Part shown: positions 45,124 to 48,533 of the stretch, piece by piece | How positions within the stretch are numbered: position 1 is the stretch's first letter | Layout of the letters: each line of letters opens with the position of its first letter | Source of the DNA: Pseudomonas deceptionensis | Lineage (GTDB): Bacteria; Pseudomonadota; Gammaproteobacteria; Pseudomonadales; Pseudomonadaceae | Direction: 5' to 3' | Assembly: GCF_900106095.1 (NCBI RefSeq) | Contig: NZ_FNUD01000002.1 | Location: 3,803,501 to 3,867,500 of the forward strand | Length of the DNA: 64,000 nucleotides | Position numbers and translations under genes: made by a program | Notes under the pieces: generated by a model | What the model was told of the DNA's origin: nothing | Databases searched by the model: none | What the model saw: the letters and a program-made list of their open reading frames with translations, nothing else

Positions 45124-46344
45124 ATGTCGTCTTCTGCACCCACGTCCCCCCTTCGCATACGCGATCTGGTCCACCCGATTGTTGCCGGCCTGATTTCAGT
45201 CATCGTCAACTATGGCGGCACGTTCATTCTGATCTTCCAGGCCGCCAAAGTGGCCGGGCTGAGCCCCGAGCTGACGGCTTCTTGGGTGTGGTCGGTGTCG
45301 ATTGGCGTAGGCATTACCGGGCTGTTTCTCAGTTGGGTGACCCGCGAACCGGTCATTACCGCCTGGTCGACACCCGCGGCAGCCTTTCTGGTCGTCGCAC
45401 TGGCAACCACGCCCTATGCCGAGGCGATAGGGGCGTACATCATTAGCGCCGCCGCCTTCGTGCTGTTGGGTTTGTCCGGCCAGTTCGAAAAAGTCATCCG
45501 CCTGATCCCGTCAGGTGTGGCCGCAGGTTTGTTGGCCGGTATCCTGCTGAAATTCGGTATCGGTGCGTTTGGCGGCATGAGTATTGACCCGGGGCTGGTG
45601 GGCTTGCTGATCGTCGCTTACGTTGTGCTCAAGCGCTTTACCGCGCGCTACGCCGTGGTGGGTATTCTGGGGCTGGGGCTGGCCTTCCTGCTGACTCAGG
45701 GGCGCGTGGATTTTTCGGGGCTGGAACTGCAATTCGCCGCACCGGTATTTACCCGGCCCGAGTTTTCGCTGGATGCGTTGCTCAGCGTGGCGTTGCCGCT
45801 ATTTCTGATCACCCTGACCGGCCAGTACATGCCGGGCATGCTGGTGTTGCGCAACGACGGCTTCAAAACCAGCGCCAACCCTGTCCTGGTCATTACAGGG
45901 CTGGGGTCATTGCTCATGGCACCGTTCGGATCTCATGCGTTCAACATCGCCGCGATCACGGCAGCCATCTGCACCGGCAAGGAAGCCTCTGAAGATCCTT
46001 CCAGACGCTGGATCGCCGGCGTTGCTGCAGGCGTGTTCTATATCCTCGTCGGGATTTTCGGGGTAACGCTTGCCGCGGTGTTTATGGTCTTCCCCGCAAC
46101 CTTCATCACTACCCTGGCGGGGCTCGCGTTGCTGGGCACGATTGGCGCCAGCATGGCCAGTGCCATGGCTGACGTTAAATCCCGTGAAGCCTCGCTGATC
46201 ACTTTCCTGGCGTGCGCCGCCAACATTACGTTGTTCGGTATCGGTGGCGCGTTCTGGGGGTTGCTGATAGGTCTGTTGGCATACGCCGTACTCAACGGCC
46301 GTTTTGCGCGCCGCGAGCCGGTCGTCGCTACAGACCGGCCCTGA
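45124..46344 (+). CDS. benE: BenE-family benzoate/H+ symporter
   Basis: A 406-residue inner-membrane protein with about 12 helices and the BenE hallmarks: IVAGLISVIVNYGGTFILIFQAA, WVTREPVITAWSTPAAAFLV and APFGSHAFNIAAITAAICTG. BenE proteins take up benzoate or related aromatic acids. The ATG at 45124 follows AAGGAG; upstream residues are not credible. It is about 40 kb from benABCD and paired with a MocR regulator instead of BenR, so the substrate may be a different aromatic or nitrogenous compound. Confidence 0.85.
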   Translation: MSSSAPTSPLRIRDLVHPIVAGLISVIVNYGGTFILIFQAAKVAGLSPELTASWVWSVSIGVGITGLFLSWVTREPVITAWSTPAAAFLVVALATTPYAEAIGAYIISAAAFVLLGLSGQFEKVIRLIPSGVAAGLLAGILLKFGIGAFGGMSIDPGLVGLLIVAYVVLKRFTARYAVVGILGLGLAFLLTQGRVDFSGLELQFAAPVFTRPEFSLDALLSVALPLFLITLTGQYMPGMLVLRNDGFKTSANPVLVITGLGSLLMAPFGSHAFNIAAITAAICTGKEASEDPSRRWIAGVAAGVFYILVGIFGVTLAAVFMVFPATFITTLAGLALLGTIGASMASAMADVKSREASLITFLACAANITLFGIGGAFWGLLIGLLAYAVLNGRFARREPVVATDRP

Positions 46345-46368
46345 CCCGGACCGGTCTGTCGTGTGCGC

Positions 46369-46887
46369 TTAGAAACACCACGCCTCAGCGGGGATGACGC
46401 GACAGAAGGGTCCAGCAAGTGACGCATTGTGATGGGCCACAATGGCTTCGGCCTTCAGCTCAGGGGTGTCGGAGCACGTATGACCGTCGGCGATCAGCAC
46501 AGCATCGAACCCACTGTCTCGGGCGGCACGGCAGGTGCTGTCGACACAATATTGGGTTTTCATTCCGGCGATGACCACCCCTTGAACGCCAAGAGCATGT
46601 AGCTGATCGGCAAGGGCCGTCCTGACAAAGGCATTGGGTCGGCTTTTTTCGAAAATCACTTCGTCTCCCTGCAACACCAGCTCCGGCACCAGTTGCGTCA
46701 GCGGGCTTGCAGCGTCGAGCGGCGAACCCGGGGGACCGATATGACGGGCGAGAAAAATCGGGGCACCCGCACTCCGGGCTTTATCCAGCAGTTTGTTCAA
46801 CGTGGCCAGCAGCGCTTCGCCACCCTGTGGCTTATCCGGGCCGTGAAGCAACCCGACCTGCATATCCAGAATCAACAGTGCATACAT
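46369..46887 (-). CDS. Isochorismatase-family cysteine hydrolase
   Basis: A 172-residue single-domain hydrolase with the Asp8-Lys81-Cys114 triad (LILDMQ, FEKSRPNAF, GMKTQYCVDSTCRAA) of the nicotinamidase/isochorismatase/YcaC group. It hydrolyses an amide or enol ether in the cytoplasm; the substrate is not defined. AAGGAAA precedes the ATG. A U-tract terminator (46926-46960) and a Thr-rich leader frame (46993-47052) lie just upstream on the same strand, in the layout of an attenuator. Confidence 0.8.
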   Translation of the reverse strand: MYALLILDMQVGLLHGPDKPQGGEALLATLNKLLDKARSAGAPIFLARHIGPPGSPLDAASPLTQLVPELVLQGDEVIFEKSRPNAFVRTALADQLHALGVQGVVIAGMKTQYCVDSTCRAARDSGFDAVLIADGHTCSDTPELKAEAIVAHHNASLAGPFCRVIPAEAWCF

Positions 46888-46925
46888 GGTGCATTTCCTT
46901 GCGTTTTAGCCAGCGACACAAGGGC

Positions 46926-46960
46926 AAAAAAAAGGCCCTTTCCATCACTGGCGGGCCTTT
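46926..46960 (-). terminator. Terminator hairpin (3:4) of the candidate attenuator
   Basis: AAAGGCCC pairs with GGGCCTTT (46953-46960 with 46931-46938 on the minus strand) around a 14-base loop, followed by a run of T (46926-46933 complement) overlapping the stem end. It is only 38 bases before the hydrolase ATG, too close to be merely the end of an upstream gene. Confidence 0.85.
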
Positions 46961-47017
46961 GAAGTTCGTGTGTTACTGGCTCACGACACCTCTCACGACC
47001 CGCCTCTGGCGGTCGTG
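46950..47017 (-). promoter_or_regulatory. Alternative hairpins 1:2 and 2:3 of the candidate attenuator
   Basis: Segment 1 (47017-47008) pairs with segment 2 (47004-46994) in a stem with one bulge and an AGA loop. Segment 2 (GGCGGGTC, 47004-46997) also pairs with segment 3 (GGCCCGCC, 46957-46950) over eight bases with one G-U. Pairing 2:3 removes the left arm of the terminator. Segment 1 overlaps the last Thr codons of the leader frame. Confidence 0.6.
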
Positions 47018-47052
47018 GTGGTCGTGGTCAAGGCAATGCGTGGTTGATTCAT
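46993..47052 (-). CDS. Candidate Thr-rich attenuator leader peptide (19 codons)
   Basis: The minus strand reads MNQPRIALTTTTTTARGGS then TGA. Codons 9-14 are six consecutive Thr codons (ACC and ACG), as in leader peptides of Thr-controlled operons (E. coli ThrL is similar in style). Its stop lies inside segment 2 of the overlapping hairpins, and a terminator follows. A weakness is the lack of a clear purine-rich ribosome site before the ATG. It may not be translated, but position, composition and RNA pairing agree. Confidence 0.55.
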   Translation of the reverse strand: MNQPRIALTTTTTTARGGS

Positions 47053-47072
47053 GGAGCTGACAGTAGCTGCAG

Positions 47073-47097
47073 GGCGCCGGGCTGACAACCCGGCGCC
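47073..47097. other. GC-rich hairpin just upstream of the leader frame
   Basis: GGCGCCGGG (47073-47081) and CCCGGCGCC (47089-47097) are perfect inverted repeats around seven bases. There is no T-run. It lies 21 bases from the leader ATG and could be the end of the upstream transcript or part of the 5' RNA structure. Confidence 0.5.
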
Positions 47098-47235
47098 GCA
47101 ATGAAACCGTCAACACTAGCTGCGATACAGACCGGACATTGTGTATCCATGGTCAAAGAGACTCCTGTTTTTGGGGGTGTTCAGCATGTGCTCAAGCCCG
47201 AAGATCACCGCACCGCTTCTCCATCGCCTGAAAGA

Positions 47236-47496
47236 TCAGGCCGGTGCAACGAACAGCATCGCCACGTGGCGCCCTTTCTTGAACTCAATCAGCCCCGCAA
47301 TCGACCCCTGCGCAACACAGACCCGTATCAGGTTATCGCCCTCCATACGGTCGGCAAACGCCTGCGCAGCGGCCACCTTGGCAAAGGTTTCCACCCCCAG
47401 CGCCGACAGCGAGGGCGCAACCGTCAGCATAAACGCGTCGAGGCACAGGGCGCTGGCGCATGGCAAATCGTCATGGGTAAGTTTGCGTATCTGCAC
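47236..47496 (-). pseudogene. GNAT acetyltransferase remnant (deletion and frameshift)
   Basis: 86 codons beginning MQIRKLTHDDLPCASALC, a GNAT N-terminus with ALGVETFAKVAAAQ and GLIEFKKGRHVAMLFVAPA, end in a stop exactly where motif A (acetyl-CoA loop QxxGxG) should follow. In another frame right after it is LIFQAMEKRCGDLRA, which resembles the next GNAT helix. The usual length is about 150 residues. So roughly 30 bases seem to be deleted with loss of frame. The remaining C-terminus is absent. Confidence 0.6.
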
Positions 47497-47522
47497 AGTA
47501 GCCGCCCTTGTCTGGAATAGTG

Positions 47523-48533
47523 CTAGGCGATCTTGATCACAACCTTGCCGAACGCACCTTTCGCCAGGTGTTCATAGGCTTCACGGGCCCTTTCGAACGG
47601 ATATACCTGATCGATAACAGGTCGGATGTTGTGTTCTTCAAGGAATACATTCATGCGGTCGAACGACGAGCGCGGCGCTACCGCGATACCGCGAATGGTT
47701 GTCTGGCGGAAGATCAGTGGCATCAAATTGAGTTCAACGGTCTGCCCGGTCAAAAAGCCAATCTGCGCAATAAGCCCTGAGGCCTTGGTCGCGGCAACCG
47801 ATTGATTGATGCCGCTGCCACCGGCCACGTCGAGGAGTAAATCCACACCCTTGCCGTCGGTGAGTTTCAGCACTTCGTCCGCCCAGTTCGGCGTGGTTCT
47901 GTAATTGATGCCGGCCACCGCACCCAGACGCTTCACGGCTTGCAGATTCTCGTCGCTACTCGACGTTGCAATCACCCTGGCGCCAAGGGCCGTGGCAATC
48001 TGCACCGCGAATATGGAGACCCCGCCGGTGCCTTGAACCAACACAGTCTGACCCGGTTGAATCTTTCCAAAATCGACCAACGAGTACCACGCGGTGAGCG
48101 CGGCGATTGGCAGTGTGGCCGCTTCTTCGTCGCTCATGTTGGCAGGTGCACCCACGGCGCTGTCTTCGTGGATGATCATGTACTCGGCCAGACCGCCAGG
48201 CAGTGGTGAGCCGAAGCAGTAATCCGGTTCGTTCGGTCCCGGCTCGCCATCCAGCCAACGGGAGTACAGGTGGGAATTGACCCGATCGCCGACCTTGAAA
48301 CGCGTGACGCCGTCACCGACCGCGACCACAGTGCCGGCAGCATCGCTCACCGGGATCAGAGGTTTGGGCACCATGTGGGGTTCATAGATGCCGTCAACGA
48401 TAGCCTTGTCGCGAAAGTTCAGCGACACGGCGCCGACCTTGACCAGTAACTCGCCGGCTTTCGGTTGTGGGGTCACAGCCTCGCCCAATTGCAGGTTGTC
48501 GAGTCCGAAATCTTTCAGTAACCAGGCTTTCAT
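47523..48533 (-). CDS. NAD(P)-dependent alcohol dehydrogenase / quinone oxidoreductase (MDR family)
   Basis: 336 residues of a medium-chain reductase: MKAWLLKDFGLDNLQLGEAVTPQP, GroES-like domain, then GTGGVSIFAVQIATALGARVIATSSSDENL cofactor fold. There is no zinc-ligand pattern. The ATG at 48533 follows GGAG; the 31-codon extension is not used. A LysR gene is divergent (171 bases between starts). Confidence 0.85.
   Translation of the reverse strand: MKAWLLKDFGLDNLQLGEAVTPQPKAGELLVKVGAVSLNFRDKAIVDGIYEPHMVPKPLIPVSDAAGTVVAVGDGVTRFKVGDRVNSHLYSRWLDGEPGPNEPDYCFGSPLPGGLAEYMIIHEDSAVGAPANMSDEEAATLPIAALTAWYSLVDFGKIQPGQTVLVQGTGGVSIFAVQIATALGARVIATSSSDENLQAVKRLGAVAGINYRTTPNWADEVLKLTDGKGVDLLLDVAGGSGINQSVAATKASGLIAQIGFLTGQTVELNLMPLIFRQTTIRGIAVAPRSSFDRMNVFLEEHNIRPVIDQVYPFERAREAYEHLAKGAFGKVVIKIA

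Follow-up and report, generated by a model that had tools for sequence, protein, structure and literature searches.

We found that the gene for an isochorismatase-family cysteine hydrolase in Pseudomonas deceptionensis is preceded by a short leader with a run of threonine codons, alternative RNA stems and a predicted intrinsic terminator. This arrangement is very probably a ribosome-mediated transcription attenuator keyed to the charging of Thr-tRNA. The window, by which we mean the whole stretch of 64,000 nucleotides that was analysed, carries leader and gene on its minus strand (Table 1). An earlier note on the same DNA had suggested an attenuator, and this reading is supported by the anatomy of the leader, by the conservation of its threonine codons and by paired changes in stem 1:2.

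The leader frame, the stems and the T-run that the earlier note had described were all found when we read the minus strand directly. Attenuators as a class are marked by a short upstream ORF in which codons for a single amino acid are clustered, and by a terminator between leader and gene, which is predicted here by sequence and folding. None of 5000 dinucleotide shuffles of positions 46888-47120 gave a run of six threonines within an ORF (the best reached five), and among ORFs of fewer than 45 codons on both strands of the 64 kb, the leader alone has at least five consecutive threonines. Folding of the 127-nt leader region beats 196 of 200 shuffles (z -2.3). A simple consensus scan of 46000-48500 called neither the leader terminator (the scan has a loop limit of 8 bases) nor the leader promoter, whose hexamers TTGTCA and TACTGT are imperfect. 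A pattern for the terminator core matched 61 of 149 genus genomes, and the reversed pattern used as a control matched none.

Table 1. Features of the leader and the hydrolase gene, in window coordinates
Feature	Position	Strand	Basis or remark
-35-like hexamer TTGTCA	47083..47088	-	sequence; orthologues have similar hexamers at the same distance
-10-like hexamer TACTGT	47060..47065	-	predicted; 17-nt spacer, 7 nt to leader ATG
Leader ORF MNQPRIALTTTTTTARGGS and stop	46993..47052	-	ATG at 47052, TGA ends at 46993; 19 codons
Six consecutive Thr codons within leader ORF	47028-47011	-	direct reading
Segment 1 CACGACCGCC	47008..47017	-	overlaps last Thr codons
Segment 2 GGCGGGTCGTG	46994..47004	-	can pair with segment 1 or 3; overlaps leader stop
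Segment 3 GGCCCGCC	46950..46957	-	antiterminator partner of segment 2; overlaps terminator 5' arm
Predicted intrinsic terminator with T-run (segments 3:4)	46926..46960	-	sequence and folding
Terminator arm AAAGGCCC	46960-46953	-	
Terminator arm GGGCCTTT	46938-46931	-	
T-run	46933-46926	-	direct reading
Isochorismatase-family cysteine hydrolase, 172 aa	46369..46887	-	PF00857; ATG at 46887; SD AAGGA before it

Simulated stalling of a ribosome changed the predicted fold of the window leader at particular codons. With segment 4 present, a stall at Thr 11 or 12 lowered the terminator from 1.00 to 0.00-0.01, with antitermination at 0.99 and 0.98, respectively. Stalls at Thr 10 and 13 left the terminator at 0.83 and 0.80 (antitermination 0.17 and 0.20), and stalls at Thr 9 or 14 left it at 1.00 with antitermination at 0.00. 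In thermodynamic terms, two codons of the window leader give a clear switch. With segment 4 absent and the ribosome on a central threonine codon, the upstream pairing of segment 3 was about 0.7 to 1.0 in all 34 leaders. Nascent-RNA folding of 74 leaders with the ribosome on the third-last threonine codon gave a mean upstream pairing of segment 3 of 0.90; shuffling the upstream sequence reduced the mean to 0.69, with a lower value in all 74 leaders, and the mean was 0.45 with the ribosome at the stop. In four leaders, including that of the window, the truncated stop state still had segment 3 paired upstream (0.78-0.85), and their stop state with segment 4 present gave a terminator of 1.00. When segment 4 was included, antitermination exceeded 0.5 at some threonine codon in 8 of 34 leaders. 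Because the terminator was favoured at equilibrium under simulated stalling in the other 26, the switch in most relatives, if it works, would have to be kinetic.

The expectation of the earlier note that orthologues would show compensating changes was borne out for stem 1:2 and failed for stems 2:3 and 3:4, which hardly vary. In 34 leaders, both-sided changes occurred in 3 of 10 pairs of stem 1:2 (11 cells), a cell count reached by none of 500 shuffles; in 26 diverse leaders, five of them of the methionine class described below, they occurred in 5 of 10 pairs (9 cells; 0 of 500 shuffles). This shuffle test takes no account of relatedness among leaders. The number of pair types in stem 1:2 was not above shuffles, and pair columns 55:70 of alignment A1 were unpaired in 20 of 31 sequences. 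Stem 2:3 was 82.5% paired, which is below its shuffles, and showed no covariation above them; pairs involving C127 and C128 were broken in 23 and 13 sequences. The terminator stem 3:4 was 93.6% paired without covariation. In one group of leaders an extra C in segment 3 accompanies an extra G in segment 4, a shift of register that column counts are unable to score.

The leader accompanies the hydrolase throughout the genus. A hydrolase search of 149 genus genomes gave 56 best places (E 6.5e-51 or better, at least 52% identity), and we counted a leader as present when a match to covariance model R2 lay within 200 nt upstream on the same strand. By this measure a threonine-rich leader lies directly upstream of 54 of the 56 close orthologues; direct reading found it in 28 of the first 30 orthologue loci. 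Two orthologues are without a leader (L021 in genome G015 and L028 in G079), and in L024, which is among the 54, only residues 32-172 of the hydrolase are matched. Model R2 was built from 26 diverse leaders, five of the methionine class, and model R1 from 34 hydrolase leaders only. R1 matched 202 of 348 genus genomes at E 0.01, including weak, probably chance matches. R2 gave 83 matches of at least 46 bits in the 149 genomes, the next being at 37.5 bits. Of these 83, 54 precede the hydrolase, 21 a GNAT acetyltransferase, 1 (an isoleucine variant) a truncated GNAT and 2 (one genome) an MFS transporter, and 5 are decayed or orphan copies; no biosynthetic gene was recognised downstream of any of the 83. 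The match at 37.5 bits is a threonine leader before a frame-disrupted hydrolase (L360). It is one of ten weaker genus matches (37.5 bits or less) that we inspected, which also include a decayed leader (L364) and eight places without such a leader.

The conserved feature of the peptide is its threonine content. We aligned 74 distinct hydrolase leaders on the last threonine before alanine (or tyrosine). Positions -3, -2, -1 and 0 are threonine in 69, 72, 72 and 74 of them, and together with the 54 of 56 orthologues that carry a leader these counts uphold the claim that the threonine codons are conserved. The N-terminal part of the leader drifts while the threonine codons vary synonymously, which we read as selection at the level of codons. 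The 74 leaders use 355 ACC, 84 ACG, 36 ACT and 16 ACA, and position -3, which lies outside segment 1, uses 47 ACC, 14 ACT, 5 ACA and 3 ACG. The longest threonine run is four to six in 64 of the 74 leaders and reaches nine. Additionally, the distances between leaders correlate with those between hydrolases (Mantel r 0.75, 72 pairs; permuted maximum 0.13). Since the two divergences co-vary, the sequences indicate that the leader is inherited together with the hydrolase gene. If a threonine-controlled regulator was joined to a new gene, as had been suggested, this was not a recent event; leader and hydrolase appear to have descended together across gamma- and beta-proteobacteria. Three genomes (G220, G183 and G346) have two or three copies of the threonine leader at different loci, most with a hydrolase ORF; for one of these copies (L121) no intact hydrolase ORF was listed. 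A copy of the terminator region, 91% identical and without a leader, sits just before a pair of ORFs that by eye resemble an IS3-type transposase (L134, G099:C1:2433443).

The earlier note had seen no clear ribosome site for the leader. This is confirmed, and the absence is common to relatives. An SD-like 4-mer precedes 2 of 74 hydrolase-leader ATGs versus 69 of 73 hydrolase starts, and 1 of 30 GNAT-leader ATGs versus 26 of 30 GNAT starts. In a scan of 60 nt, the best sigma-70-like match ends 6 or 7 nt before the ATG in 58 of the 74 hydrolase leaders and 8-29 nt from it in the remaining 16; the distance is 6 nt in 28 of 30 GNAT leaders and 8 nt in the other 2. Mean promoter scores are 8.5 (hydrolase leaders) and 8.8 (GNAT leaders) of 12, compared with 6.3 and 6.8 in shuffles. 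Because the promoter-like match ends so close to the ATG, we infer that the leader mRNA is probably leaderless, starting at or near the leader ATG. Such an mRNA would account for the absent ribosome site. In the window, a near-perfect inverted repeat GGCGCCGGGTTGTCAGCCCGGCGCC (47073-47097) covers the -35 hexamer; it is not obvious in the other leader promoters compared.

Leaders of the same build precede other genes and carry other codons. Model R1, built from hydrolase leaders only, also matched leaders before GNAT acetyltransferases of about 150-190 aa (E near 1e-14). In promoter spacing, in the ..TA.GG tail and in the core of the terminator they agree with the hydrolase leaders, but they carry methionine codons (for example MTYTRQMNMMCSSMTASGGP and MPPTNLVSMMRPLMTAFGGP); 29 of 30 distinct GNAT leaders have three or four internal methionines. 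Simulated stalling at the methionine codons gave the same behaviour, in truncated RNA, as in the threonine leaders. The leader-linked GNATs match RimI and PRK09831 weakly, below the cut-offs. A leader of Pseudomonas bohemica, MTTQSRMHIIRSSIFAFGGA (L168 and L253, one and the same locus), has isoleucine at three of the four methionine positions. We considered this variant as a swap of sensor, a proposal weakened by the truncation of the GNAT downstream; because of this truncation, the variant may be drift in a broken module. The same genome (G085) has an ordinary methionine leader with a GNAT as well.

A nine-threonine leader precedes a 429-aa MFS transporter in G079. The best NCBIfam match of the transporter is MdtH, at 41 bits versus a cut-off of 469. 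Leader and transporter occur twice (L370 and L371; contigs C62 and C104), within a 7.5 kb stretch that is 99.7% identical on the two contigs and is either a recent duplication or an assembly artefact. A search of 57 relatives of G079 at E 1e-60 found no MFS homologue besides the genome's own two copies, so the transporter case rests on one genome.

Outside Pseudomonas we inspected 5 of 48 plasmid-collection records, four with a leader and one without, and three genome-contig loci. Homologous hydrolases with a threonine leader in front of them occur in Caballeronia (MNFLTLTTITTITTAFGGP), Paraburkholderia (MNAHLLSTTTTTTASGGS and MNFNALHTATTTTTTYGGS), Delftia tsuruhatensis (MVYCTLTTTTSTTASCGPCEVP), Burkholderia cenocepacia (MHNATITLSTTTRTTAFGGPVRRVRARS), Pantoea agglomerans (MSVQSFTTVTTTTTTTASGGGVSDSVTGT) and Duffyella gerundensis (MFIAAGRITTTTRTTAFGGGVSVDAMVS); the Aeromonas caviae homologue is without one. 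B. cenocepacia also has a methionine-class leader, MNFNALQSMMCTMTAYGESWET, before a 157-aa GNAT-like ORF. R1 gave matches in 19 of 194 order genomes (E 0.05) and R2 in 43 of 321 class genomes (E 0.01). We do not take these as broad spread: the best matches outside the genus reached 27 bits (R1) and 39 bits (R2), and those inspected were not this module. Among the terminator-pattern matches listed, most of those outside Pseudomonas were unrelated coding sequence. As the models found little in one or a few genomes per family, the spread outside the genus looks patchy. The 39-bit R2 match (L336, G809:C15:106534) precedes a gene that by eye is aspartate-semialdehyde-dehydrogenase-like. Its leader, MIRLTINKRTMKTKTLLAGSRLSVRV, has threonine, lysine, methionine and isoleucine codons and a terminator, and is perhaps a conventional aspartate-family attenuator unrelated to the hydrolase leaders. 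Other short leaders (for example MHAILSLAIAAIKNPVNAIIGGSSGERVR) were seen in Burkholderia, Paraburkholderia and Caballeronia (L349, L350 and L351), with a promoter-like sequence just before the ATG, a terminator and then a gene that by eye is DUF2917-like; they are possibly another attenuator class.

The assignment of the downstream gene to the isochorismatase family proved correct (PF00857, 117.2 bits versus a cut-off of 27). D8, K81 and C114 are invariant in alignments of 16 and 22 sequences, and we take Asp, Lys and Cys to be the catalytic residues of the family. The hydrolase is not a known biosynthetic enzyme. Among the NCBIfam equivalogs PRK11440, BiuH, RutB, PRK11609 nicotinamidase and YcaC, the best match was 49 bits versus a cut-off of 195. 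A fold search with a structure model (pLDDT 85) brought up isochorismatase-like hydrolases, with identities of 19-32% across the 50 best rows, and the closest folds among the matches listed include the amidases maleamate amidase NicF, biuret hydrolase and RutB. PA1677 (8cib) and PP1826 (4h17) share fold and family with the hydrolase, but at 31-32% identity. The neighbouring genes gave little clue to function: only one co-directional downstream neighbour is frequent, a D-2-hydroxyacid-dehydrogenase-like gene (14 loci), and no threonine-pathway gene was recognised near the hydrolase in the neighbour clustering, which was judged by eye and mostly without family scans.

Ribosome-mediated attenuation itself has long been known. 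The amino-acid attenuators of textbooks regulate operons for the synthesis of the very amino acid that they sense; thrL of enterobacteria, with its threonine-rich leader ORF, alternative stems and intrinsic terminator, precedes thrABC. The Rfam family of Thr operon leaders (RF00506) gave a weak full-length match to the window (17.5 bits, E 0.46; gathering score 55), but the window leader has no SD and its gene is a hydrolase, not thrABC. We rejected membership in Rfam families, since no match at gathering level was found in the window or near the leaders in nine loci. In Pseudomonas aeruginosa, the PA5471.1 leader of armZ (the mexXY anti-repressor) is described as linking a regulator of resistance to stalled ribosomes and to a defect in tRNA (PMC12057347, PMC13041342). 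Like the window leader, it is a Pseudomonas leader-peptide attenuator on a non-biosynthetic gene; it differs in controlling an anti-repressor, and the available text mentions no threonine or methionine run, the comparison being one of descriptions rather than sequences. The trpL leader RNA (rnTrpL) of Sinorhizobium meliloti is reported to start with the ATG of the leader ORF (PMC7298713), and is a precedent for a leaderless leader, but on a biosynthetic trp operon in an alphaproteobacterium. We recognised no description of our leader in the portions of the open-access literature available, which is weak evidence of absence. As far as our searches go, the target, the leaderless design and the use of one platform with different sensor codons before different genes are apparently new.

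We propose the following model. RNA polymerase would begin at the leader ATG, or no more than a base or two away from it, and a ribosome would bind the 5' AUG in the absence of a Shine-Dalgarno site and translate the leader. When charged Thr-tRNA is plentiful, the ribosome would reach the stop and cover segment 2, and segments 3 and 4 would form the terminator. When charged Thr-tRNA is scarce, the ribosome would stall in the threonine run and cover segment 1. During the stall segment 2 would capture segment 3 before segment 4 is made, and this pairing would let RNA polymerase read on into the hydrolase gene. The hydrolase may then destroy a small molecule that itself depresses the charging of Thr-tRNA, for example a ThrRS inhibitor or a threonine analogue, so that the inhibitor's own effect would induce its removal.

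To the proposal that the hydrolase clears away an agent that depresses Thr-tRNA charging we give slightly less than an even chance. We make it because hydrolases, acetyltransferases and transporters include many detoxification proteins and because precedents exist in addition to PA5471.1. The isochorismatase-like hydrolase SttH opens the lactam of streptothricin and thereby inactivates it, although the review doubts that streptothricin is the native substrate (PMC11702664) and this is probably a side activity; we liken it to the window hydrolase by description, not by sequence. The GNATs MccE and RimL act on microcin C, a blocker of aspartyl-tRNA synthetase (PMC4964394), and offer a precedent for the GNAT behind the methionine leader. 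Obafluorin, a ThrRS inhibitor that needs its intact beta-lactone, is made by Pseudomonas fluorescens (PMC10619133). Taken together, the threonine switch and its methionine sister suggest a defence triggered by the damage that it is to relieve. More tentatively, we hypothesize that Pseudomonas and Burkholderiales share a family of leaderless, codon-programmable attenuators. Each would respond to inhibition of one aminoacyl-tRNA synthetase (Thr, Met, perhaps Ile) by inducing an enzyme (hydrolase or GNAT) or exporter (MFS) suited to the toxin concerned; the inducer would be the uncharged tRNA that the toxin brings about, and codon changes would retune the sensor.

The main alternative to detoxification keeps the Thr-tRNA attenuator and gives the hydrolase a metabolic role, in which, under threonine shortage, it would act on an amide or carbamoyl compound to release threonine, ammonia or a precursor. 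The amidases NicF, biuret hydrolase and RutB among the closest folds listed are in keeping with this role, as is the one R2 match outside the genus that precedes an aspartate-family biosynthetic gene. However, the by-eye neighbour clustering, mostly without family scans, brought up no threonine-pathway gene, and a metabolic role leaves the methionine-leader GNAT and the threonine-leader transporter unexplained. We consider it rather unlikely. The leader might instead be a nascent-peptide or drug-stalling sensor of the kind found in erm-type leaders. Ribosome-targeting antibiotics would then stall the leader regardless of tRNA charging, and the threonine run would be merely a slow stretch. Some of the genes behind the leaders belong to groups in which detoxification or efflux proteins occur, and PA5471.1, a leader attenuator of the same genus, is described as induced by ribosome-targeting drugs (PMC12057347, PMC13041342). 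In our leaders, however, the identity of the codon (threonine, or methionine) is conserved while run length and flanking residues vary, a pattern more in line with tRNA sensing than with an arrest peptide of fixed sequence; even in PA5471.1, the Q3 and F4 codons are reported to be involved in the response to a tRNA-maturation defect (PMC13041342). We regard a drug sensor as improbable.

Least probable by far is that nothing is regulated; the threonine run would then merely follow from a stem rich in ACC, and the hairpin would close a transcript that began upstream. The last threonine codons do overlap segment 1, so the run is partly constrained by pairing; against this stand the synonymous variation at position -3, upstream of segment 1, and the joint inheritance of leader and gene. 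The earlier note had raised the tail of an upstream transcript as a weak point. We rejected this origin as unlikely because leader and hydrolase stay paired while the upstream genes differ, and because the leader has its own promoter-like sequence. In the window, the gene upstream is a frame-disrupted GNAT remnant (47200-47496, minus strand): its frame is lost after AMLFVAPA, and a GNAT-like LIFQAMEKRCGDLRA follows in another frame, with nothing recognisable beyond.

If the Thr-tRNA attenuator is correct, a widespread attenuator sits here on a non-biosynthetic hydrolase, with a sister methionine class on an acetyltransferase, and probably operates without a ribosome-binding site. An uncharacterised enzyme family would gain a testable physiological cue, shortage of Thr-tRNA, and aminoacyl-tRNA-synthetase inhibitors or amino-acid analogues would be indicated as candidate substrates of the hydrolase. 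The related leaders form a natural series with different sensor codons.

A further pairing was seen downstream of the stems. The terminator loop contains GCCAGYRA, which is able to pair with a UYRCUGGC lying just 5' of the hydrolase SD (window 46905-46955, and orthologues). Seven or eight of the 8 pairs, including wobble, are present in 59 of 73 leaders, some of them T-rich chance matches, and on average 19% of the shuffles give at least as high a value. The combinations GCGA/TCGC, GCAA/TTGC and GTGA/TCAC change together, and a fifth segment acting after read-through is possible.
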